A stretch of 64,000 bases of DNA from Isoetes taiwanensis (lineage: Eukaryota > Streptophyta > Lycopodiopsida > Isoetales > Isoetaceae): the NCBI GenBank assembly GCA_021234155.1, contig JAJEKV010000027.1, forward strand, positions 8,044,873 through 8,108,872, in the 5' to 3' direction. The position numbers and the translations under genes are program-made. Below the pieces are notes generated by a model. The model was not told the DNA's origin. It did no database searches and saw nothing but the letters and a program-made list of their open reading frames with translations. The number at the start of each line of letters is the position of its first letter. Within the stretch, counting starts at the first letter, position 1. Of this stretch, positions 6,261 through 56,770 are shown in pieces.

Positions 6261-7781
6261 CTATATTGCTGTAACACCTATACATTTCAGCAAATTCTTT
6301 AATTTCGAGAACCTGTTAAAATGCAAAGCCTTTGTGAAGATGTCTGCAAGTTGGTCTTCTGTTTGCATATACTCCAGCTTAATTAACTGCTTATTTACAG
6401 TTTCCCAAATAAAATGCATTTCCAATTCAATGTGCAATCTTTGACACCGTACAATTTCCTTTGCTGCAAGAGTTGTGGAAGCATATTCGGCCTCAGCTGT
6501 TGACATGGCAGTGAAGGTCTGTTTTTTGCATCTCCATGAAATTGGAGCTCCTCCTAATAAGATGACATATCCAGAGGTGGATTTTGGAAGATCTAAATCT
6601 CCTGCCCAATCTACATCACAATATGCTTGCAGCTTCAAATCCTTTGAACAAAATACTAGTCCATGAGTCTTTGTTCCTTTAAGGTATCTAAGAATTCGTT
6701 TTGCAGCTAGCCAATGACCTTTCCCAGGATTATGACAATCTCTACTGAGCAAATTAACACTGTAAGCAATATCAAGTCTTGTGCTATTTGCTACAAAAAG
6801 TAGACATCCAATTAGTTCTCTATAGGGAATTTTCTCCATGTCACGAATTTGCTCATCTATTTTAGGACACATTTCATTTGAGATCTTGCTGCCAGGTACA
6901 CTCGGCGTATTAACTGGATTGCAATGTTGCATATTAAATCTTTCTAACATGCTATCAATGTTTAGAGCCTGAGAAAGTGCCAGAACTCTCAATTTTTTGT
7001 CACGTTTGACTTCCACATCCAAGAATTTATGGAGTTCACCCAAATCACTCATTTTAAATCTGTTTTTGAGAATATCTTTGCACTTATTCATTGTCTCCAT
7101 GTTACTTGCTGCCATGATGCAGTCGTCTACGTCATCTCCCTGTTTAAGCATGTATAGATTTCCATCATTTTGTAACTTTGTAAAGCCTTGTTCTTGTAAA
7201 TATGAATTCATACACCTGTACCACTCTCGTGGAGATTGTTTTAGCCCGTAAACTGCTCTCTTGAGTCTCCATACTTTGTTATCTCCTTTGGAAAATCCTG
7301 GGGGCTGTCTCATATAAATTTCTTCTTGTAACTTTGCATTTAGAAATGCTGTTTGTACATCCATATGGTGCAGATCTAAATCAAGTGCATTTGCTAAAGC
7401 AATTAGCATCCTAACACTTGTCACTTTTACAATTGGTGAGAAGGTTTCATCATAATCAAGACCCTTCTTTTGGGAGAAACCCTGTGCCACTAATCTCGCC
7501 TTATATTTTGGTGTTACGCCATCTGCTTCAAGTTTAATCTTATATATCCATTTGTTTCCAACTATATTTTTTTCTTGAGGACTGTCTACTACTTCGTATG
7601 TCTGAGTTCTATCAAATGCTTCCATTTTGCTTTCCATAGCGTTTCTCCAACTAGCTGCATCAGAGGAACTAATTGCCTCTTCATAATTTTTTGGCACACT
7701 AGGTTCTAGCACCGTCAATGCTTCTAAAATATCAATATCATTAATTTCAGTGTTCAAAGAATTACCTTGAATTTTGGCCAA
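6261..7781 (-). pseudogene. Copia reverse transcriptase and RNase H
   Basis: A 506-residue open stretch encoding the C-terminal half of the Copia polyprotein. The reverse transcriptase part carries KARLVAQGFSQKKGLDYDET, HMDVQTAFLNAKLQEEIYM and the catalytic box as DVDDCIMA; the family usually has YVDD, so the two aspartates are kept but the tyrosine is not. RNase H follows with AYCDVDWAGD, STSGYVILLGG and MSTAEAEY. A stretch normally found near the end, around the tether to the HIDV-type motif, is shortened. The frame is separated by a stop from the integrase block upstream. It would act in cytoplasmic virus-like particles, but this copy cannot be made as a full polyprotein. Confidence 0.92.
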
Positions 7782-7811
7782 TTGTTTACTTCTGCCTTGA
7801 TCTTCTCTTCC

Positions 7812-8975
7812 CTATTGTGTAGTATCAATAGCTGCTTCATCTCTCAACCTTTGGCCCTCACTTCTTCTTCTTCGATGTATTTCTGCATTCTTTTCTTGAA
7901 CAAGTGCAGCTTGAGATGCAGTACAGTCCTCATTTGATGTTGGGAGATCAATATGTGCTCCTTTATCCTCTCTTTGACCTGTCTTAACATTCTCATGATT
8001 AGCATTAAAGTTAGAAATAAGTAAATCGTTATCATCTTCAACAATTTGCTGCAACAATTTTTCTTTCTTAGCATGCATACTCATATGAGTATTAGCTCTC
8101 GTAATATTGCTTGCATCAACAACAGTAGATTCAGCTTTGTCAATTATTGATCTAGGTTTGTAAAGCTGCCCTTCATCAGATGTTACATCACGGCTTATGA
8201 TAATCTTCTTTCTTTGCGGATCATAGAGTCTGTAACCTTTGGAGTGTCGGCCATACCCTACCAAGTATGCAATCCAACATCTATCATCGAGTTTAACTCT
8301 TTGTTTCGCAGGAACATGCATAAAGGCCAAGCATCCATAAACTCTAAAATTTTCATAGCTTGGCGTAGATCCTGACCAAAGTTTCTGAGGTATGCCTCCG
8401 TTCAAGCTTGCAGATGGCAAGAGATTTTGTATGTAGACAGCAGTCATGACCGCCTCCTCCCATAAATAGTTTGGAAGGCCGCTATGTTTCAACTTTGCCC
8501 GAGCAGAATTTAGGATAGTTCTATTCTTCCTTTCAGCCACTCCATTTTGCTGTGGTGTATGACTGCAAGTGTATTGCCTTTTTATTCCTTTCTCGCTGCA
8601 ATAGGCGATAAATTTAACTGACATATAATCTCCGCCTCTGTTTGATCTTACACATTTTATCTTTCTTCCTGTTTCACACTCAACTTCACTAGCAAACAGT
8701 TTAAATGCATCAAATGCAAGATCCTTAGTCCGTAAGCAATAACATCTAGTTTTTCTACTAAAATCATCAGTAAATGTTATAAAGTACCGTTTACTTGTGA
8801 TGCCAACCACATTCAGAGGACCATACAAGTCTGTATGTATCAGATCGAGCAATCCCTTTGCTCTTTTGTTTGATTTTTGAAACGACAATCTGGTGTGCTT
8901 TCCCAATTTGCATCCAACACATATAAACGGATATGTGACAATTTCTGAAACTGTGATCAGACCTTGTTTGGCCAT
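7812..8975 (-). pseudogene. Copia integrase
   Basis: A 387-residue open stretch. The zinc-binding end CVGCKLGKHTR is followed by the core: HTDLYGPL (first Asp), VRSNRGGDY (usual second Asp position, RSDRGGEY in the family) and TPQQNGVAERKNRTIL (Glu). The second catalytic Asp is replaced by Asn, which should abolish strand transfer. The C-terminal part holds the family's GCLAFMHVPAKQR-type block and a low-complexity hinge. Stops at both ends cut it off from gag and reverse transcriptase. Confidence 0.9.
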
Positions 8976-9178
8976 ATATTTACATTTGTAATATTAGTAT
9001 GGCCTAATTTTTTGTGCCATGTCCTTGTTGAATAAACAGTGGTCAGATTTATACTTGACAAACATTTACTGCTCAACCCAAACAGATTGCCAACTCGTTT
9101 TCCAATGAACTTTAATTCATTTCCAAAAAATACTTTACAATCGAGTTTCTCAAAGACAACTCTAAATCCCAAATCCAC
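8957..9178 (-). pseudogene. Copia gag-pre-integrase segment
   Basis: A 73-residue stretch ending in TWHKKLGHTNITNV, the typical gag-pre-integrase histidine motif of Copia polyproteins. It overlaps the integrase block in a different frame and follows a stop after the protease block, which points to at least one frameshift and one nonsense change here. Confidence 0.8.
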
Positions 9179-9181
9179 AAG

Positions 9182-10468
9182 CTAAGATATTGAAAACAAA
9201 TTCCTTACTAACGAAGGAACACACAAAACATTTTTTAAGTTCACAGTTTTTCCATTTAGATCATACAATTCAAGTATGCCTACATCTTCAATTCTTTGCA
9301 TTTCTCCATTGCCAACTTGCACATATCCTGATTTTCTTCCATTGCAATCCTTCAGCATTTTAACTGAGCGTGTCACTGACCTCTCAGCTCCACTATATAA
9401 GATTACAAAATCATCATCAATTTCGTTATTTGTTTCAGAAATAGACAAAGCTTGAATTCTTACCTCAGCATCATGATCTGAACCTTCTTCTTCCTCTTTC
9501 GAATTTTCTTGTGTGAAGTGTACACTAGCACTCTTTCTTTTATCTGCGCCTCTTCCTCTTCCAGCAGATCCTCCACGATTTCCCCTTCCTCTTCCTCTAA
9601 AGTTAGAGCACTTAGGACTAGAACAATTGTTGGACATATGTCCTTTGCCTCCACAATTATAGCAGACTGGATCTGAGTCATTTAGCTTAGAACAATGGGC
9701 TTTAATATGACCATATGAATTGCAATTATAGCATGGACCAATCTTTCCTTTTTCTCGACCTCTAGTTGCCTTGTTGGTGTAGAGTATTTCTGCTGTTTTC
9801 TGCTCATTTTCCTGATGCAAGAGCTGATGCTCAATTTCTGCTCTTAAAATGTTCTCCGCCTCCTCTCTTGATTTTGCAACATTCCTGATAAATAAGGATA
9901 GTTGCCCAAATTCAACTAACGATCTTGAAATAGCATTAACTTCATGCTGGGGTGTCATTTTGATACCTGCTCCTTCTAGATCAGAAACAATAGTGTCAAA
10001 TTTTTCAAAAAATGCATCCACATCATCCTTCTCTCGAAACTTTAGTTTCCTTAACTCACTTTCCAGTACATCAATTTGAGAGGAAGTTTTCTTCTCAAAA
10101 TGCTCCAGCAAGTACTGCCACATTTCTCTTGGAGTTTTATTCTTAAGTTTAAGCAAAATAGTAGGGCCAACTTTACTAGTGATTATGCCTTCAGCTTCTC
10201 GAATTTTTTCAGCTTCTGATTTGCTTCCCCCTGCATTTATTACAGATCTACCACTGCTTAGTGTCCCTACTGTACCACTACTTGCAAAAGTAGCTCCTTC
10301 TTGCTCTGCACTGGCAGCTCCAGTATTCACAACAGTGAACGAGCTTGTTCCAATCTTTTCACCTGTGCTATCAACAATATCCCATAGTTCTTCTGCCACC
10401 AACACACGATAGCAACAATATCCCATAGTTCTTCTGCCAGCAACACACGTTTCATTTTCTCTTTTCAT
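9182..10468 (-). pseudogene. Copia gag and protease
   Basis: A 428-residue open stretch. The gag capsid part (UBN2-type, with WQYLLEHFEKKTSSQIDVL) is followed by two CCHC zinc knuckles, CYNCNSYGHIKAHC and CYNCGGKGHMSNNC, then an RGRGRGNRGG tail. Protease comes last: the active site reads VILYSGAERSVT where the family has a DSGA core, so the catalytic Asp is Tyr. The N-terminus contains a short internal duplication (CCYRVLVAEELWDIV, also present just upstream in another frame), seen as a repeated ATATCCCATAGTTCTTCTGCCA block at about 10376-10438. The true start codon is uncertain. Confidence 0.9.
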
Positions 10469-39688: not shown

Positions 39689-40351
39689 ATGGATAATAGC
39701 AATACGATTGCACAAAGGGATGTAGCTGAGAGCTATAGGGAGAGAGCATGACATAGAGAGAGAGAACGCTATGCAAATATGACTGAGGACGATAGAGAGA
39801 AGATACGAGAAAGAGCTAGAGAGCGTGCAAGACAACGTCATGCTAGAATAATAGAAGAGAGAAATGCAGAACATAGAGATGCAGTTGTGAGTCAGCAAAA
39901 TGGTACTACAAATTTGAATAGTTCGGTTGAAGGGAGTATGGAAGGGAAGATTGTGCGTGAAAGAAAAAGAGGACGGTATGCGAACTTACCCGAGGAGGAC
40001 AGGGACATGATACGTCGTAAAAGAGTAGAACGCTACATTAACTTATCCATGGAGCATAGGGAGAATATACGACAGAGAGATAGGGAACGCCATGCAGAGC
40101 TCTCTGAGGATGATAGAGTGAGATTGCAGCAAAGACAGGTAGAGCGCTATGCACAGCTATCTGAGGATGATAGAGAGAGCATAAGGCAAAAAGAGGTAGA
40201 ACGTTACGCAAGCTTAATTGAACATGATAGATTTAGAATGAGGCAAAGGGCTAGAGAGCGTTTAGGACGACCCCTCTCTATACCCCCACAGAGAGATGTA
40301 GCCTTTCGAACCATTGATATCATACCAACATCCTCAACCCAAACATATTGA
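39689..40351 (+). pseudogene. Helitron N-terminal charged repeat region
   Basis: From ATG 39689 the frame runs through one stop (39748-39750) to 40351. It encodes 5-6 copies of a ~24-residue Arg/Glu/Asp-rich unit, for example ERHAELSEDDRVRLQQRQVE and ERYAQLSEDDRESIRQKEVE. Helix-forming repeats of this sort occur ahead of some Helitron and Helitron-like proteins; their role is unknown, with nucleic-acid binding or oligomerisation as guesses. The next block continues in another frame from about 40314. Confidence 0.7.
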
Positions 40352-42035
40352 AGCAAATGGTACATATGGGGAGGTAACATCAGGAGCTTCCACACATTGG
40401 CAAGCCCGTGCACATGACATAAATTTGGCTATACGCCGAAATTATGTGATGTGCTCCTGGAATAAGAGATGCACACATTGCCAAATTCCACTTCTCAACG
40501 TTGAGCGCGATGGGTTCTGTTGTAATAAGGGAAGGTGGTTATTACCACCACTACCCCCTTTGCCCTTGGCACTAAACAACCTGTATAACATGAAAGAGTT
40601 TGCGGAGGTAGCAAGAAAAATAAATAAACTATTCTGTTCCAGTGTATTAGGAGTTAGCGGTGGATTTGTGAATTTAGACTTCCCATCTTCGGTAACTATT
40701 ACAGGACGAACATATCACCGATTACGACCCACATCGGAATCAGGGCATCTAATACATTGGTATATATATGATGAATCTGAACAATATGTACAAGCAGAAG
40801 CCCAAAGAGTACCATTTCAATGGGCTGCTACTGTCGGGTCAATTCTTGAACAAGTAAATCCATTTATCCAAAACCTTCGAACCATGGGAAGTATGCATAT
40901 GCCATCAGCATATATTACAATTCAAGGAGTGGTTGCTGGCAATGAGATTGCCGCCATTGCAGATGCCAGTAACACAGCCGATCTCGCTCCTCGGATAGCT
41001 GGCTTTTGGGTTTGTAACGAAGGGGAGCCAACCTTCATGAACATCCTTGACCCTATGTATGAACCATTGCAATATCCACTTTTTTTCCCACATGGAACTA
41101 TTGGTTGGGGACTTGGGAATGAACATGGTCTTACACAATTGCAATGGTATAGGTCTAGATTGCTACATGAGGAACGGATTCTTCAATTAGGGCGTTTGTG
41201 TGGAGAATATTTAGTTGACATGTATTCTAGAGTTGAGGATGCTCGTTTAAACTACTTCAGAACGCCAACATTTCGAAATAGAAGAGTACAATATGATGAG
41301 GACTATGCCGAACAAGAAAACGATGCTCAAAATGACGTCATTTTACCATCATCCTTCTTAGGATGTCAGAGATGGTGTTCTGTGCAAGTCGCTGATGCGT
41401 TGGCACTATCTAGGTCAAAAGGTCGCCCGACGTTATTCATCACTATGACTACAAATACGGATTGGCCAGAAATACGAGTCAGACTCAGACCTGGACAAAA
41501 TGCATCTGATGTTCCAATGATTGTTATCCGATGCTTTCATGGAAGATTGCAACGATTAAAGGAGCTTCTTCATAAATGTTTCCAGCATATATCATATATG
41601 ATAACTGTTATCGAATTTCAAAAACGAGGATTGCCACATGCTCACCTCGTCTTGCGTACTGAACCTGACATACCAATTGAATGCATAGACAAAATTATCT
41701 CTGCTGAATTGCCTGTAGATCCAGTCCTTCGAGGACAAGTTCAAAAGTTCATGATGCACAGAGACACAGAAAGGTGCTCTGCAAATGGTAGCCCATGCTG
41801 TTACAAATACCCGAGGGATGTCAACCCAACAACATATCTTGATTCGAAGGGTTATGTACAATATAGAAGGAGGAGTATAGATGATGTATGGGTGGTTCTG
41901 TGTAATGCTTTCCTTCTGCATGAGTTGGATTGTCATATTATGGTAGACGTAGCTTCTACGGTCCATGTATTCTCTTATCTTTATGGTTATACTTATAAAG
42001 GATTCAGCTTCTGTACCATCATCATTAGGCAATGA
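40314..42035 (+). pseudogene. Helitron Rep (HUH nuclease) region
   Basis: A 573-residue open stretch. It starts with a zinc segment (CTHCQIPLLNVERDGFCCNK followed by PPLPPLP), then the Helitron-like N domain (YEPLQYPLFFPHGTIGW). The Rep core has TNTDWPEI and the metal-binding HUH motif as KRGLPHAHLVLR, followed by ERCSANGSPCCYKYPR and the DCHIMVDVASTVHVFSYLYG block that comes before the catalytic tyrosines in the family. The frame is lost at the YTYKG stretch near 42000. This region would nick and join the element's ends. Confidence 0.9.
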
Positions 42036-42960
42036 GCATGAAACAATCGCGGAATCCTCATTGAGGAACAATGATCAAAGAGAATATACCACGAGCCAAT
42101 CATCAACACATGGACCATCTGAACAAGCCATTAGGCGGCCTATTAGGAATGAAATACAGGATTATTTGAGAGCACCTTATCTATCAGCAACAGAAGCGGC
42201 ATGGAGAACAATGTCATATGAAATAACAAATAAGTGTCCTGCTGTCAAATGCCTACCTTTACATCTTCCACATCCTAACACGAGGTCATTGCTAGATCGA
42301 TATTTCTTACGTCCTCTAGACCTCGAGTTTGATACCTTCACATATATTCAATACTATGAACAATACACCTTGACCGTATACAATTTAGCATTGGCAAGTG
42401 AATCTGGAAGCCATGTGGAACAAGAGCGGGAGGGGTTCACGAGGAATATAGTGAAGAGAAGGGTCAGGCAACCAATTGTATGTAGGATACGATTGCTATT
42501 GCCTCGTGTGGGAGAAGCATTCTACTTGAGACAATTTCTTTTACATCGCCCTGTGAGGACATGGGATCAGTTGAAAATTATCAATGAACAACAATATGAA
42601 ACGTACCAGCAAGCTGCAGAGGTAGAAGGATTACTCGCAGCACATAATAAAGCAGTGTTAGTCATGGAAGAAGCCATATCCTTATCATTGAGTCCCACGC
42701 AACTACGGTTTCTTTTTGCCATGCTACTGCTTGATCAAGATCCAGCAATTGAGCTATGGACTAGATTCAAAATACAGATGAGTGTGGATTTACTAGATGA
42801 ATATCCAAATGATGATATGACCGCGTTCAATGAATCAATTCATTTAATCAACAATATTCTGACACAACACAATACTAGCATCACGGCATTTGGTCTCCAA
42901 TTACATCCTCGTCTTGGAAGAAATGTCATCCACGAATTACAAAAATTTTCCGACCATTGA
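42002..42960 (+). pseudogene. Helitron linker after Rep
   Basis: Starts in a new frame after a shift near 42000. RNEIQDYLRAPYLSATEAAW corresponds to the conserved DEI-xYLxxRYLSxxEAxWR segment between Rep and helicase, and AVKCLPLHLP follows as in intact Helitrons. The rest (RRVRQPIVCRIRLLLPRVGE with FYLRQFLLHRP) is the usual pre-helicase region. It ends at TGA 42958. Confidence 0.88.
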
Positions 42961-49573: not shown

Positions 49574-49598
49574 AACAAGATTGCGTATTAAACGGGAG
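49574..49598 (+). repeat. Left terminal inverted repeat
   Basis: Reads AACAAGATTGCGT followed by ATTAAACGGGAG. It pairs with 56746-56770. The 12 inner bases match exactly. Confidence 0.75.
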
Positions 49599-49960
49599 CA
49601 AATCATCGAAACGAGAGCAAAAGGAATATTCCTTTAAGATTCCCTTTTTTTTTTTTACAAAAAAGGGGTAAAACGAGGAAAAAAAAGGGTTGCATGAAAT
49701 TCTATTTTGATCCCCCTCCCCCCCTCCCCCAAATGACTAGTTTTTTTGTGCAACAAAAGAATTGACTTTTTTAAAGTGACACTTTTCTTAGCAAATAGAA
49801 TGTTCTTGAAGTATGTTTTTAGAGAGAAACTCTAATTTCAGAGGATAAAATATTTAACAAAAAATTGAAGTAAAGTCTGTAACTGAAACTGTAGTATTCT
49901 TAAAATTTGAAGATAAAATCTTCATATTCACATGCAAAATTTACAGTCTTTTTCTAAGAC

Positions 49961-52186
49961 TCAGTTATGTACAAAAGTGTGAGGAGTGATGAAGGAGGGA
50001 TCCAGGACGTCATCATATTCATTTATGCCATCCTCATCACCTTCACTTTTTTCACTGTCACTCGAGGAAGTGCTTGAGTTGTCTTTCTCATCACTATCAA
50101 CAGATGGTGAAGCATTGCCACCACCACTCCCTTCTTCATCCTCTTCCTCATAACTACAAGCCTTTTTAAGCAAATTGATAGTTCTCTGGCACAGACGATT
50201 GTCAGGTTTCAATTTGAAATCATAGCACAATATAGTCACATCACTTTAAGTTCAGCTCATCCCTACAACCCACTTTCTTGGACTTCCTCCCTTTTCTTTG
50301 ACTTCTCATTTCTAACTCTACCTACCTTCAAAAGCATTTTCTGAACGTGTCGCAAGCCAGTGAATCGTGAGTTTAGTTACTAAGCCTTCCTCCTTGACTG
50401 TATCAAGAACTTTTGCTACCGAAAAAGGTTGACCTTTGTCATCTTCCTCAGTTGGAAGAGCAATCAACATACCTTTGACAATTTTTGTGATATTGCCTTG
50501 AGGCTCATTCCTACGTCTTGGTCCGAGGTACATGCTCGGTCCTCGTCTTCCTCTGGTGCTAATGTAGCATTGCTTGGACCTGCCTGGTTCTGGGGTTGAT
50601 GGAAGGTATCAGGCCATTGAAACGGTTCTTGCAACTGTCTTAGAGCTAGGTTGTCCAAGACATCTTTCTGTTCAAGAAAGAAATTTCTCCACCACATCTG
50701 ATCTTCTTCTGAGAAGTACTTAAAGCCTGAGGTAATGCCATTTCCAATGGCTTTTAAGGATGTCAATAAGGTACTTTTCTTCTGCACGTTAGGAGAAATA
50801 TGCTTTTCTTCTGTCAATGACTCCTTAGGATTTTTGAGAGGAAGTTGCTCAGCACGTTCTATGAAGCAATGGTCTGGAACAAATTTAAGGAAGTGCAATC
50901 CCTCTGGTGGACTCCAATCCTTAATTGTGGTGTACTTCTTCCCCGGTAAGAAGCTTTGTCCATCCTTCAAGTAGAACTTGATGTGATGTTGAAAGGTAAG
51001 ATCATTCAACTTGTTCACAACTAGTTCTCTATCTGAACGTTGAGGAAAAACAAACTCTCTAAAGTCAGCAGTCTCTTTAAGAAGCTCGACCACTGGAATA
51101 GGAGTGTAAGAATCTTCAATGATTCGAACTAAAGTAGGAAGACAAAAAGCTTCTTCCTTCTAAGGCGCACAGAAAATCTGCTGAACATCTGGTCAATCTG
51201 ATCATGTGTGTGCCCTACAAGTAAAAATCCGAGCTTTACTTTTCTGAAGATCCTTAGCCCCACTAGCATAGCACAATAAGCAAAGAGTGTTTGATTCTTG
51301 TTCTCTCTTGTAGTGTTGTCAAGTTGCAGGTAGAGCACTGGTGGTAGTTGCTCTTGCTCGGACAGGACCTTGTTAAGAATTGTAATTGTCAGGTTCGGGT
51401 CACCATGAAGTTTGGATACGTCAAAAATACTTTGCACTTTAGACTTCCTTTGAAGACCATGGCTCCTACAAGGTGGACTTTAACAAAACATTCCTCTGGC
51501 ACATCTTTGGAATATTTAGGAAATGGGGTAGAGTTGTCTTTTTTCTATCCATTCCATCAATTACAATAGACATATATTGCAGTGGACATTCGAGAGCTTT
51601 TTTTCTGTGTTTTGGCGAGCTTTCTTCTCTTTGCTGCTTGTTGTTCATGATGTCTGGCAAGATTCTGTTGCACGATATCTGTAAAAGAAATCAGGTTAAA
51701 ATATTTTCTTTAAAACAAGTGAGAGATTGGAGGACTTGAGCTTACTTCTTTCGACCTCTGTCTTTGCAGTTTCTCGTTGACTTTTTAATTCTGCACACCT
51801 TGAGCAAACAAACACTCTATGTCTCCTTGGAATTTTCACAAGGCCAAATTCACTTTTTCATAGTCTAGTGAAGTGTGAGTAAGGGATGTGCTGAAACTGA
51901 ATGCAAGTCTCTTTGTATTCTTTGAAGACCTCTTTTTTGTAATATTGTCTGTCAAATGATACATGTTGCTATTAGGCAACTTCTCACATGTCTCTCTAAA
52001 ATATTTCCCCATCCATGTCACAGCAGCCAGGGCATGCATGGTTACAACTCTTCTTGGACCACAGTGATTATCAATTGCTGGGTTTTTATCCAGTCTTTTG
52101 TGTATTCGAGACATTCTTGTGGACCCTAAATGGTGGACAACCATAAAGCTATTTTTGACAGACTTGTTCATGAAGCGGTTCGTCAT
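49961..52186 (-). pseudogene. DUF7869-type RNase H-like protein, candidate transposase
   Basis: Read on the minus strand from 52186. An N-terminal region (HALAAVTWMGKYFRETCEKL) is followed, one frame off, by LVKIPRRHRVFVCSRCAELK (CxxC). The core follows: MSIVIDGMDRKKTTLPHF (51530-51580), PPVLYLQLDNTTRENKNQ (about 51290-51345) and KLGFLLVGHTHDQIDQMF (about 51185-51235). The spaced aspartates in IDGMD, LQLDN and HDQID fit an RNase H-fold catalytic set as in the DUF7869 family. A C-terminal part (DWSPPEGLHFLKFVPD; GQPFSVAKVLDTVKEEGLVT) and an acidic Ser-rich tail end at 49961. The pieces lie in different frames; some gaps are probably introns (50464-50533, 51093-51129, 51660-51750), but stops and a shift near 51845 suggest decay. 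Transposase function is inferred. Confidence 0.75.
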
Positions 52187-52189
52187 CGT

Positions 52190-52705
52190 AACAACTGCAA
52201 ATTAGTGTAGAGATTTGAGAAACTTTCTCTAATGCAGAACTTTTCTTATTCCCAAATACGGTACAAGTAGAAGTTCCTGTAATGATTAAGTGAAAGGAAA
52301 ACTAAAAGCTATTCTGGAATACACTGGAGTAGGACACTAAGGCTAAACGTATTCCATTTCACATAGAATACGAGCAAGACGAAAGGGTTACCTGTAAAAG
52401 GAAATTTTGGCGCCCTCACTTCCGTATTCCAGTCTCTGAGTTCTAGTCGCCAACGCCAGCGCCTTCAATATTAAATTCAGAGACTGTATTCTGATTTGCA
52501 TAGAGAAGACATGGACAAATGAGTGTAAAAAGTACAATGTACTTTCATTTTCAAATCTGTTGCTTATTCCAGAATAGAATTTGGTTGATCAAAGGAGCCA
52601 AAGTGTATTCCGGAATACACTTTGGCTCCTGTGGGTAAGCCAAAGTGTATTCCGGAATACACATTCGGTGTTGTTTTGTAGGCAAGTTGTAATTTTGAGA
52701 AAAAT
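52190..52705. promoter_or_regulatory. Palindrome-rich spacer between the divergent genes
   Basis: This stretch separates the starts of the two divergent genes and should hold both promoters. It contains two exact GTGTATTCCGGAATACAC palindromes (52603-52620, 52645-52662) and several imperfect ones (near 52313, 52423, 52566). The first is the centre of a perfect 36 bp palindrome at 52594-52629. Transposase binding, autoregulation or a methylation target are all possible; none is shown. Confidence 0.6.
52594..52629. repeat. Perfect 36 bp palindrome
   Basis: GGAGCCAAA and TTTGGCTCC flank the 18 bp core GTGTATTCCGGAATACAC, and the whole is its own reverse complement. A half-repeat (GCCAAAGTGTATTCCGGAAT) follows at 52639. 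A near-perfect relative, with AGCTAAAG arms and one central mismatch, lies at 54736-54767. Confidence 0.95.
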
Positions 52706-55700
52706 TTGCCTGCTTTTTGCTCTAAGGAGCATGTTTTTCAACACATTTTAGACGACAAAAAACCCCTAAATGCATTGAAATTGTTGTGGAAAAGTCTTAA
52801 ATTTGTTCTATTTAAGAACCAAAATTCTGTTTTTTTATTCCAGAATAAGTTTTTATCTTCGTTTCGTCTTCTAATTTTGGTTTTAACAAAAACATTTTAC
52901 AGGCAAGAAGGTAGCAATAAAACTTCACGCAAGACGATAAAGCTGAAATCAAAACCACACCCACAGGCTAGGGTTCAGGACACAGATGAACCTGCTGTGT
53001 ACGAAAATTTTCAGACACAGTGGTTCATAACAAGGGGAACTGGAAGAAAGTACAGCACACTCACTTTCCTCCATGTCTGCGGAAGTCCGGGAGGCAAGCG
53101 CTACGATGACTCGGAGTTTAAGTGCATGGGAGTCATCGAAGAAATTTCAGAAATCGCGGGTCAGTCTGGACAACAGGGAAGGCTATCTTTTAAGACCTCC
53201 CAAGGATTTATAGTTGTGGACCAGACCTATTTCAGACTTGGTAGAGTGGCACCTCCAGCTTTGCACAAGTACATGACACATTACATAAATAAGCTGAGGT
53301 TGTCGGAAATTATAAAAAGAGTTCAATCCACTCAAAGCGAGGATTTTGCTTGCAGTGAATCTGAAGATGAAATAGTGGAGGAGGAGAGGTAAGAAGATGC
53401 CTCCAGTCAGGAAGAACGGGACGAAAGTCCCAGTACATCAGAAGAACATCAGAGGATGAGCCAGTTACAAGGCACTGTTGCAGCTAAGGAACCTAAAAAA
53501 CGCAAAGTGCAAGAGATTATGGTGCAGGAAATTCCAGAAGAACATCCAAAGAAAAAGAAGGGAAAGGGTAAGGCACCAGGGGTGGCCATCAAGGAAAAGA
53601 AGGTGGACAAGACCTCAGAGCGGATGGAAGAAATAAATTTGCACAAATATGTGCAAGGAGTAATTTATTTGCCAGTAACTTCCATGAGGTTGCCACCAAA
53701 AAATGAAGCTGGTGACCGCCCTCTTTAGGTTCGGAAGATTTACGCTGACCACTTAAGGAACCTAAAGACAGAATCAGGAGCAACTCCAATGCCCACGTTG
53801 CACCGACTGTCGTTATCGTGGACAGATCCCAGTGCATGGACCCCAAGGACTACGACAGAGAAAATGCAGACACTTACATACATTATGTTCTAGGTGGAAC
53901 CACAGTTTTAAAGCAAGGAGGCAGTTGTACAAGGAGAAACATAACCCGAGATATCTCTCTGTCCTCTGTGCTATTTACTGTGGCCTGACAGACGAAGAAG
54001 CGAAGATCGTTGCCAACACACACAATGCTGACAACGAGTATAAACTTAAAATGAGCTTCGTCGACAAGATCAGGTTTATGCATAGGGAGTTTGTAATATT
54101 TAAAGAAAAATATGGAGAAGATCTAAAAAAACCAGCAAACTCTTTAGAGCTGAAGGAAGCGTGTGCTGTCGAGTGTTGTCTCAAGTACGACGAGGCTAAC
54201 AAACGACAGTCTCTGATAGCACACGACAACTGGTTTCAACTAGCCTTCAGAGACGGCAGAGTAAGTATTTTTTGTATTCCAGAATAACCGTACAGTCCTC
54301 CCACTAACCACGTTTATATCTGTGCAGATTTGGGACCTATAAAATGAAATTTTTACCATGTTCGAGCGTGGAGAATTGAAAAGCAACGGAAAGGTCTCCG
54401 AAAAGAAAAAGGCTCCGACGTTCCGAAGAAAGAGATGACAATAACCGTCTGGAGAGAAATGCAGGGCTTCACAGACATGGACTTACTCGAAAGGCTACTG
54501 CAGAAGGTTGTGGACAAAGAATTTACTCTAGAAGAAATGTCCAAGTTGCTGCACAAGTAAGACAGAACGCCATTTGCTTTTCTTCTCTGCAATTATAACA
54601 GGACGTCATATTTATAAAATTAAGAAAATGCTTCGTGGCACGTTTTATTACCAATCCACAAACGTATTTCGGAATATGCCTCTTCCTCTGTTTGCGGCTA
54701 GTTTGTTTTCCGAAGTATACATTTCTCTAAGCTGAAGCTAAAGTGTATTCTGGAATACACTTTAGCTGCTAAAAAAGCAAAACGTATTCCGGAATACACT
54801 AGTGCCTAGTCTAAAAATGATCCCGTATTCCGGAATAGGATTGTGCTTTGACGTGTAGGCAACAGTTGCCTCTGTTTACCACTTGTAGTGTTCTAAAGTG
54901 TTTCCTTCTTATTGATGCCTTCTAGTTAGTTGTCTTTCTTCTGATGTTGTAGTTATTTTTCAGCCAAAAAAACGTCATCACATGTCAAACATGTTTGATG
55001 GAACAATTGAATGTTGACAGCTGGGAAAGATGTAAAGAACTCTATCCTATCGCAACCTCGGATGAAAGGATCATCCAATATGCACCAAAATTTGAAGGCT
55101 GGGTATGTTGAATTATTTTCTACGTTTTCATTTTTCTTGTTACAGAGACGTTCTTTCTTGCAGAGCAAAAAGAAAAACAAGGACCTGCCGGAGGGCTTCA
55201 TGCACTTGGTCAGGACAATACGGGAGGAGAGAACATTAGCGAACAGGCGTGTTTTGGATAATGAGCCCTCCGATTACGAACGTTTTACCATGTTCGATCA
55301 AAACAACCTGTTTTGTATAGTACACGGTGACTGCACGAAATTGTTCGATCAAGCCCCAAGATTTCACCTTAGCAATAGCTGACCTGCCATATGGCTTCAA
55401 GCTTAAGGACAACCGCTACGATGACCAGCATTTAAAAACTCTGAGTTTAATGCTTTCGTCGACGGCATTAAGAAAATTACCACGACGAAACATTGGAGGC
55501 TAGTTGTTTTTCACTCAAGCATGCAATCCGGACTTGTGGAAGCCACCTTCAAGAATCACTTTGGTTACCAGTGCAAGCTGGATATGAAAACCTGGTCTGG
55601 TAAGTACTTATTCGGGAATACAAATGTCTCTTTGTTTTCTTTATGTACTTTTTCTTTTAGTTAAATATGCTAGCATTTTCACATTCTTGTTAGGAGTTTC

Positions 55701-56418
55701 TATTCCGAAATACGTTTCTTTCGGTACAAGTTAACTCGTATGTTATTTTTCTTGTTCCTTAGGTACAAAACAAATATTAATTACCATGGTGGACGACCGA
55801 GACTGCTAAGTAAGGTGAATATCTCCATGTCGCTTACTGGAGTTTCGACAGAAAGCGTATAATGGAACATTTTAACACAGCAGCGTGCCAGAATTTCTCG
55901 AACGTATTGGAGTTCCCAGTGGTATTGCAGAAGCTGCAGGACCCTAGTGCACAAGGGAGAATAGTGAATCATTACCAGAAGCCACAAAAGTTGATTAACC
56001 ATCTTCTAGACATGTTCTCACGACCATGAGATTGGGTGCTCGATGCATTTTCTGGCTTGCTTGTGCAATTAGGAAGGGCCGTAATTGTGTAGCCATTGAC
56101 ATTGATAAGGAGGCTGTGAACTTCATCAAGATGAGACTGTCTGCCTTACCAACTCTACCAGACGAGAATCAAGAGTTGGGCGCCAAGTCTTCATCTGATT
56201 TTGCCAAGATGACATCTTCGGAGATACAACCTCCATTTACAAGCTCCTTGGATGACGAAGCTACTTTTGTAGAGTTGAAAGAAGTAGCTCTAGCTACAAT
56301 ACCGGAAGCAACTAGCAACACAGAGAAGCCTAAGTCACCGGAAAAAGATGAAACGACAGAATCTGACAAAGCTGAGACGAGCATGAAAAATGAAGAAGAC
56401 TATGCTTTAAATCTGTGA
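52706..56418 (+). pseudogene. ParB-like plus beta-class DNA amino-methyltransferase protein, broken
   Basis: Pieces on the plus strand, in order. (1) 52900-53392: QWFITRGTGRKYSTLTFLHV and ending FACSESEDEIVEEE; unknown domain. (2) 53455-54110: a Lys-rich linker, then VIYLPVTSMRLPP, RKIYADHLRNLK, NADTYIHYVLGGT and YCGLTDEEAKIVANTHNADN, resembling ParB-like domains. (3) 54345-54560: EMTITVWREMQGFTDMDLLE. (4) about 54968-55110: NVITCQTCLMEQLNVDSWER. (5) 55170-56120: VHGDCTKLFD, motif IV DLPYGF (55381-55398), NHYQKPQKLINHLLDMFSRP, motif I DWVLDAFSG (56030-56056), then GRNCVAIDIDKEAVNF. An acidic tail ends at 56418. Motif IV before motif I defines the beta class (N6-adenine or N4-cytosine). Lesions: a shift before motif IV, TGA at 56027, a shift within motif I, and stops near 53726 and 54343. 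Exons are inferred. Confidence 0.72.
54736..54837. repeat. Cluster of TATTCCGGAATA palindromes
   Basis: Three successive sites: GTGTATTCTGGAATACAC (54743-54760) inside a ~32 bp near-palindrome, CGTATTCCGGAATACAC (54783-54799), and GTATTCCGGAATA (about 54825-54837). They lie in non-coding sequence between coding pieces 3 and 4. Imperfect versions occur at 54276, 54666, 55608 and 55700. Confidence 0.88.
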
Positions 56419-56727
56419 CTTGTCTTATGCTATAGTTATTGATTGACATTGATTATTGCCATTATTGATGTAACACAAAAACTGTAAAGAAATTATTATT
56501 ATTATTTCTACTAAATTTGTGTTATTTCTACATCCACCTTCATAAAATTGCGTACTCATGTCTGAATTTTGCCATTTTTATGTGATTCACTCTACAAAAC
56601 CAAGGTCGTGTCCAAAAGGGACCCCAAAAATAGGCAAAAAAAAAAAATTGATACTCCTGAAATTTTAAACTTCTATTAAAAAAGTCCAATTTTGAAAGAG
56701 ACGTGCTTTTTTTAAAGGAATCTTTGA

Positions 56728-56754
56728 AACGGGAGTGCTGCAACACTCCCGTTT
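56728..56754. repeat. Subterminal hairpin at the right end
   Basis: AAACGGGAGTG and CACTCCCGTTT face each other across a few bases, so the right inverted-repeat core is present in both orientations. The left end does not have this second copy. Confidence 0.75.
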
Positions 56755-56770
56755 AATTTGCAACCTTGTT
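56746..56770 (-). repeat. Right terminal inverted repeat
   Basis: CTCCCGTTTAAT then TTGCAACCTTGTT. Its reverse complement matches 49574-49598 at 22 of 25 positions. Confidence 0.75.

Follow-up and report, generated by a model that had tools for sequence, protein, structure and literature searches.

The window analysed here is a 64,000-nucleotide stretch of Isoetes taiwanensis contig JAJEKV010000027.1, whose numbering is used throughout unless a locus is named. Positions 49574-56770 are a dead, decayed copy of a high-copy DNA transposon with terminal inverted repeats (TIRs). The element pairs a gene for a DUF7869 protein, which is most likely the transposase, with a divergent gene for a ParB-like/amino-methyltransferase protein. 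Four families of the element each have their own 14-bp palindrome, repeated in the intergenic space and within introns (GTATTCCGGAATAC, GTATGAATTCATAC, GTATAAATTTATAC and CTATGCGCGCATAG). The presence of family-differing palindromes beside a methyltransferase gene hints at an element that marks itself.

Anatomy and copies of the transposon

The features of the window copy are as follows.

49574..49598, + strand: left TIR (AACAAGATTGCGTATTAAACGGGAG), outer flank TTTT
50247..52156, - strand: broken DUF7869 gene (probable transposase); tblastn aligns it, across several frames, with residues 358-987 of the DUF7869 frame of L029
52310..52847, no strand: intergenic copies of the palindrome TATTCNNGAATA (52310, 52565, 52606, 52648, 52836)
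52901..56415, + strand: broken ParB-like/amino-methyltransferase gene; tblastn match to residues 3-902 of the L018 protein, in several frames
53749..54284, + strand: ParB-like part, frameshifted (HYVLGG.HSFKAR... GLTDEEAKIVANTHN)
54275..54286, no strand: palindrome at the start of intron 1, the intron being placed by comparison with better preserved copies
54746..54837, no strand: palindromes of intron 2, about 40 bp apart (54746, 54785, 54826)
55381..55398, + strand: catalytic motif IV of the methyltransferase, DLPYGF (tblastn)
55609..55620, no strand: palindrome of intron 3
56036..56056, + strand: motif I, VLDAFSG (S-adenosylmethionine binding), downstream of motif IV as in beta-class enzymes (tblastn)
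56746..56770, - strand: right TIR, outer flank TTTT

As a preliminary description of this DNA had proposed, the inverted ends are 25 nt long and complementary at 22 of 25 positions (88%), and they enclose two broken divergent genes, one for a DUF7869 protein and one for a ParB-like/beta-class amino-methyltransferase. The ends are 7147 nt apart. The TTTT outside each end agrees with the 4-bp duplications seen at other copies. DLPYGF (near 55381) and VLDAFSG (near 56036) lie in different frames because the window copy is broken, and tblastn found nothing in it that matches the initial third of the DUF7869 frame of L029.

The genome was searched with both element ends and with pieces of both genes. 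Each end gave more than 1300 first-look candidates, the best 40 of which were scored (of 1371 for a 127-base left end and of 1341 for a 131-base right end). The DUF7869 piece gave 7752 candidates, the ParB piece 2796 and the methyltransferase gene 1443, with the best 150 scored in each case. Twenty loci of 9.9 kb (L009-L028) were picked among the scored ParB matches for their long open ParB frames. DUF7869-half sequence lies at the expected place in all 20, although it is only partial in L025 and L011. The start of methyltransferase exon D is present in 16 and was not found in L019, L022, L026 or L012, the last of which runs off its fetched stretch. Both ends fall within the stretch in 12 copies, which are 6.6-8.8 kb long, and identical 4-bp flanks are seen in all of these except L020 (11 of 12). 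Where preservation is better, copies carry AACAA... ends with 4-bp target duplications and a head-to-head gene pair. The recurrence of TIRs and target duplications in several copies identifies the element as a TIR DNA transposon.

The two genes travel together. The same ends enclose both, head to head, in many copies, as the preliminary description had predicted, and the pair is retained in diverged families. At least 32 of the 150 listed ParB matches have a listed DUF7869 match 1.5-6.5 kb away on the expected side, 31 of these 32 on opposite strands, and among the matches listed there are none on the other side. Copies with the same ends and without the full gene pair, which the preliminary description had named as evidence against the linkage, do exist. 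L006 and L040 together make up one such copy, about 2.3 kb long, which has lost internal sequence but retains both ends and four palindromes; L026 is a further internally deleted copy. We do not count these as refutation, because such deletions are expected of a DNA transposon. L006 and L007, which depart early from the family sequence, are among seven other left-end loci (L002-L008) that reach only about 1.5 kb into the element.

Copies also differ in how their halves relate to the window copy. L009-L012 are about 84-88% identical to it in both halves; in L020, L021 and L023, for example, the DUF7869 half is 87-91% identical and the ParB exon about 76%. Element halves may have been exchanged between subfamilies. 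More diverged methyltransferase pieces lie beside family copies at L011:9259-9790 (28-59% identical) and L040:168-1031 (28%).

The two encoded proteins

DUF7869 (Pfam PF25273) matches the window on the minus strand at 51129-51437 with an E-value of 9.4e-39, which bears out the family assignment originally made from spaced aspartate motifs. The score is 133.4 bits in the window and 173.7 bits in L029, both above the gathering cut-off of 26. The motifs named at that time, IDGMD, LQLDN and HDQID, are all present in the window copy, and IDGMD, LQLDN and HTHDQID are conserved. A sequence search of the PDB found no relative of this protein.

The ParB-methyltransferase gene of better preserved copies has four exons separated by GT-AG introns. 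Its protein has a beta domain at the N-terminus and, in addition, a ParB-like domain and an amino-methyltransferase of the permuted (beta-class) type. The L018 protein matches N6_N4_Mtase (PF01555) with an E-value of 1.1e-16 and 61.8 bits (gathering cut-off 26.7), and the best PDB match of the methyltransferase is CcrM (6pbd, 7.1e-9). Motif IV precedes motif I, in agreement with the beta-class order first reported for the window copy, with DLPYGF or DIPYGF in exon C and LDAFSGSGTT in exon D. The ParB-like part agrees in fold with ParB-CTPase proteins, and matches to DUF6551 are weak (0.067 and 0.12). The N-terminal beta domain, seen for example at L010:4144-4504 (minus strand), has W13, R17 and L29 invariant in eight sequences and is PH- or RFTS-like at best.

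The genome holds several diverged families of the methyltransferase. Searches of viral, phage and prokaryote collections turned up no close relative, and 12 phage matches are 22-38% identical over all or part of the methyltransferase. The module that the preliminary description took to have been acquired, a ParB-like/amino-methyltransferase gene, is present; a phage or bacterial source for it is a possibility.

The ratio of nonsynonymous to synonymous differences (pN/pS) is 0.081 for the ParB exon (190 pairs, 20 copies) and 0.043 for the DUF7869 core (10 pairs, 5 copies). By this estimate, the ParB exon is under purifying selection.

Palindromes in four element families

A search with the DUF7869 family led to other subfamilies, from which six loci (L032-L037) were taken irrespective of the methyltransferase; three were later extended. 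The ParB part lies upstream of, and divergent from, the DUF7869 gene in five of the six. The catalytic part is present in four, namely L032 (in L041), L034 (in L042, 28% identical), L035 (partial) and L037. ParB and methyltransferase pieces of the diverged loci are 28-61% identical to L018. Between the four families, DUF7869 proteins are 44-60% identical and ParB parts 39-52%. L032 and L033/L037 are nearest neighbours by DUF7869 and, by a small margin, likewise by ParB. AACAA also opens the left ends presumed, from inspection by eye, for L032, L033 and L034. A Stress-antifung domain, which is a plant domain, adjoins L034, and the genome contains RuBisCO large subunit; both point to a green plant, and an animal host is rejected.

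The palindrome of the window's family, TATTCNNGAATA, occurs 169 times in the 98,634 bases of the 12 full copies and is absent from 20,286 bases of flanking sequence. Ten lie in the window element and one elsewhere in the window; shuffling the single bases of that element 200 times produced none. Its wider consensus reads AAGTGTATTCCGGAATACACTT, and arrays have a period of 42-43 bp. All 15 palindromes of L018 lie outside the exons and DUF7869 frames, that is, in the intergenic region or in the three introns. The other families have different palindromes at comparable positions. GTATGAATTCATAC is found, with variants, in L032, L035 and L041, and CTATGCGCGCATAG in L034 and L042. GTATAAATTTATAC occurs 9 times in L033, 5 times in L036 and 24 times in L037, where perfect 14-bp palindromes of any sequence are expected 0.27 times by chance (maximum 2 in 200 first-order shuffles). 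The pattern S-TAT-N6-ATA-S is common to all four palindromes and occurs 137 times inside the 12 copies and once outside them; the window has 7 occurrences beyond its element. L040 has a single CTATGCGCGCATAG at 2958.

None of the 12 full copies has a palindrome within 3.5 kb of its left end. The palindrome closest to a right end is 1.08 kb away, except in the deleted copy L026 (330 bp), and in L034 a palindrome lies some 380 bp from the presumed left end. The CG at the centre of the window-family palindrome is often TG or CA (68 CCGG, 44 CTGG and 38 CCAG), as expected from 5-methylcytosine (5mC) placed by the host. Matches to DNMT1-RFD are present in the genome.

Outside the element, open reading frames (ORFs) at window 6261-10468 resemble a copia-type retrotransposon and long ORFs at 40314-42960 resemble remnants of a Helitron-type helicase, both judged by eye. 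The flank of L018 (8981-9878) has tandem-repeat-like ORFs with units such as SNMPRWLQHA.

Proposed self-marking and its alternatives

ParB proteins are loaded onto DNA at palindromic sites close to the genes that encode them. This habit and the fusions of a ParB-CTPase fold to an N6_N4 methyltransferase that are frequent in phages (PMC12704722) make for a simplest joint reading in which the ParB part serves to locate the element and the methyltransferase to mark it. The ParB-like part would load on the element's own 14-bp palindromes, both intergenic and in the methyltransferase introns, and bring the methyltransferase to the element. The enzyme would then methylate element DNA, most likely at adenine-N6 and possibly at cytosine-N4. 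The mark would oppose host CpG methylation and so keep the element readable, or would signal new DNA to the transposase. We consider the whole of this reading, from loading to a mark that acts against silencing or in the timing of transposition, to be evenly balanced between right and wrong. Protein binding to the palindromes stands at about the same level, methylation of the element's own DNA is somewhat probable, and an anti-silencing purpose is put forward tentatively.

Several observations weigh against self-marking. No copy with both genes open was seen. The 4.5 kb of L036 show no part of the methyltransferase gene, and the 2.5 kb that follow L033 yielded no catalytic part. GTATAAATTTATAC is not confined to its own family, with one occurrence each in L032 and L035, which belong to another. 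ParB profiles are weak at the sequence level (TIGR03764 at 0.036, far under its cut-off), and a profile search of the ParB-methyltransferase protein gave no match to ParBc. The selection estimate is biased, the loci having been chosen for open ParB frames, and exon D gives dN/dS values of 0.47 (L016/L018) and 0.16 (L025/L028), with two of six pairs computable among four equal-length copies. The preliminary description had the module kept beside a transposase gene. It is kept beside the gene of DUF7869, a probable transposase whose structure model, with a mean predicted local distance difference test score (pLDDT) of 44, is too poor to show an RNase H fold. Lastly, CpG observed/expected ratios are 0.50-0.71 in the elements against 0.59 in the rest of the window. 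The two are similar, which gives no sign of escape from CpG methylation, and the idea that the element shields its own CpG sites was dropped on that ground.

A more elaborate, parS-like form of self-marking is possible but on the unlikely side. Here, a nucleoside triphosphate-dependent ParB-methyltransferase clamp would load at the family palindromes, spread and write an amino-methyl mark; families would recognize their own DNA, and co-evolution of protein and palindrome would insulate them from one another. We rate slightly lower the alternative that the DUF7869 protein or a host transcription factor binds the palindromes and regulates the divergent promoters, with the methyltransferase acting at a short target of its own that is independent of them. 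The space between divergent genes and the introns are usual regulatory positions, and the sole tie between palindrome and ParB part is that both differ among the four families, where DUF7869 differs too. However, four palindrome cores that differ while keeping the same places are hard to account for by a host factor, and the distance of the palindromes from the ends in the 12 full copies (with L026 as the exception, and L034 having one nearer its left end) argues against a role in end cleavage.

Dam times Tn10 transposition through hemimethylated ends. By analogy, the methyltransferase could time transposition of the Isoetes element, methylated ends being inactive and freshly replicated, hemimethylated ends active. 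An amino-methyltransferase with motif IV D-[LI]-P-Y has been retained beside the DUF7869 gene and its ParB exon is under purifying selection, which fits this alternative, but Dam is supplied to Tn10 by the host rather than by the element, and we consider timing by methylated ends improbable. Action on the host, whether on expression or chromatin at other loci or in competition with other mobile elements, would suit the coexistence of several diverged methyltransferase families in the genome; it is very improbable, as family-specific palindromes inside the element point to self-recognition. Chance adjacency, with a methyltransferase gene that happens to sit between two ends, is rejected as contradicted by linkage in 20 of 20 loci and in five of six diverged loci, and by at least 32 ParB-DUF7869 neighbours on the expected side versus none on the other among the matches listed.

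Other mobile elements are known to carry modification enzymes. Retrotransposons of the DIRS group, which have Dam-like adenine methyltransferases, and dinoflagellate and charophyte retrotransposons with DNMTs are likewise eukaryotic, and self-methylation has been proposed for them (PMC5890265). They are retrotransposons, whereas the Isoetes element has TIRs, 4-bp duplications, DUF7869, arrays of palindromes and a permuted beta-class enzyme that includes a ParB-like domain. Fungal TET+ DNA transposons, in 11 lineages, also carry a DNA-modification gene, probably against silencing (PMC12730594), but their cargo is a dioxygenase acting on 5mC and that of Isoetes, a land plant, is a predicted amino-methylation writer. 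Giant-virus Mariner elements with endonuclease and methyltransferase genes are likewise DNA transposons with both a transposase and a DNA methyltransferase; they are single-copy, viral and have another transposase, and the available text on them does not describe a ParB part (PMC3627910). Sola2 DNA transposons resemble the element in having 4-bp duplications and in the length of the transposase (888 aa in Sola2); their duplications are AT-rich, whereas those of Isoetes also include CTCG, TAGC and CCTA, and their cargo is Fanzor (PMC3627910). The phage fusions have the same two domains and a link to mobile elements, but are phage or prophage proteins, and the main text, as available, contains no 'transpos-' word (PMC12704722). 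The bdelloid rotifer N4CMT is likewise a eukaryotic, intron-bearing PF01555 permuted amino-methyltransferase, which deposits N4-methylcytosine (4mC) at transposons; it is a host gene with a chromodomain and serves silencing, whereas the Isoetes enzyme is encoded by the transposon itself (PMC8885841). The literature searched, which excludes most subscription papers, yielded no element joining DUF7869, a ParB-like domain and an amino-methyltransferase and no mention of DUF7869.

The presence of N6-methyladenine (6mA) in land plants has been questioned (PMC12695648). If self-marking is correct, the transposon would naturally supply a land plant with 6mA or 4mC. Alongside its DNMT1-type genes, the plant genome would hold very many copies of a bacterial-type amino-methyltransferase gene, and the transposon would mark itself rather than erase the mark of its host.

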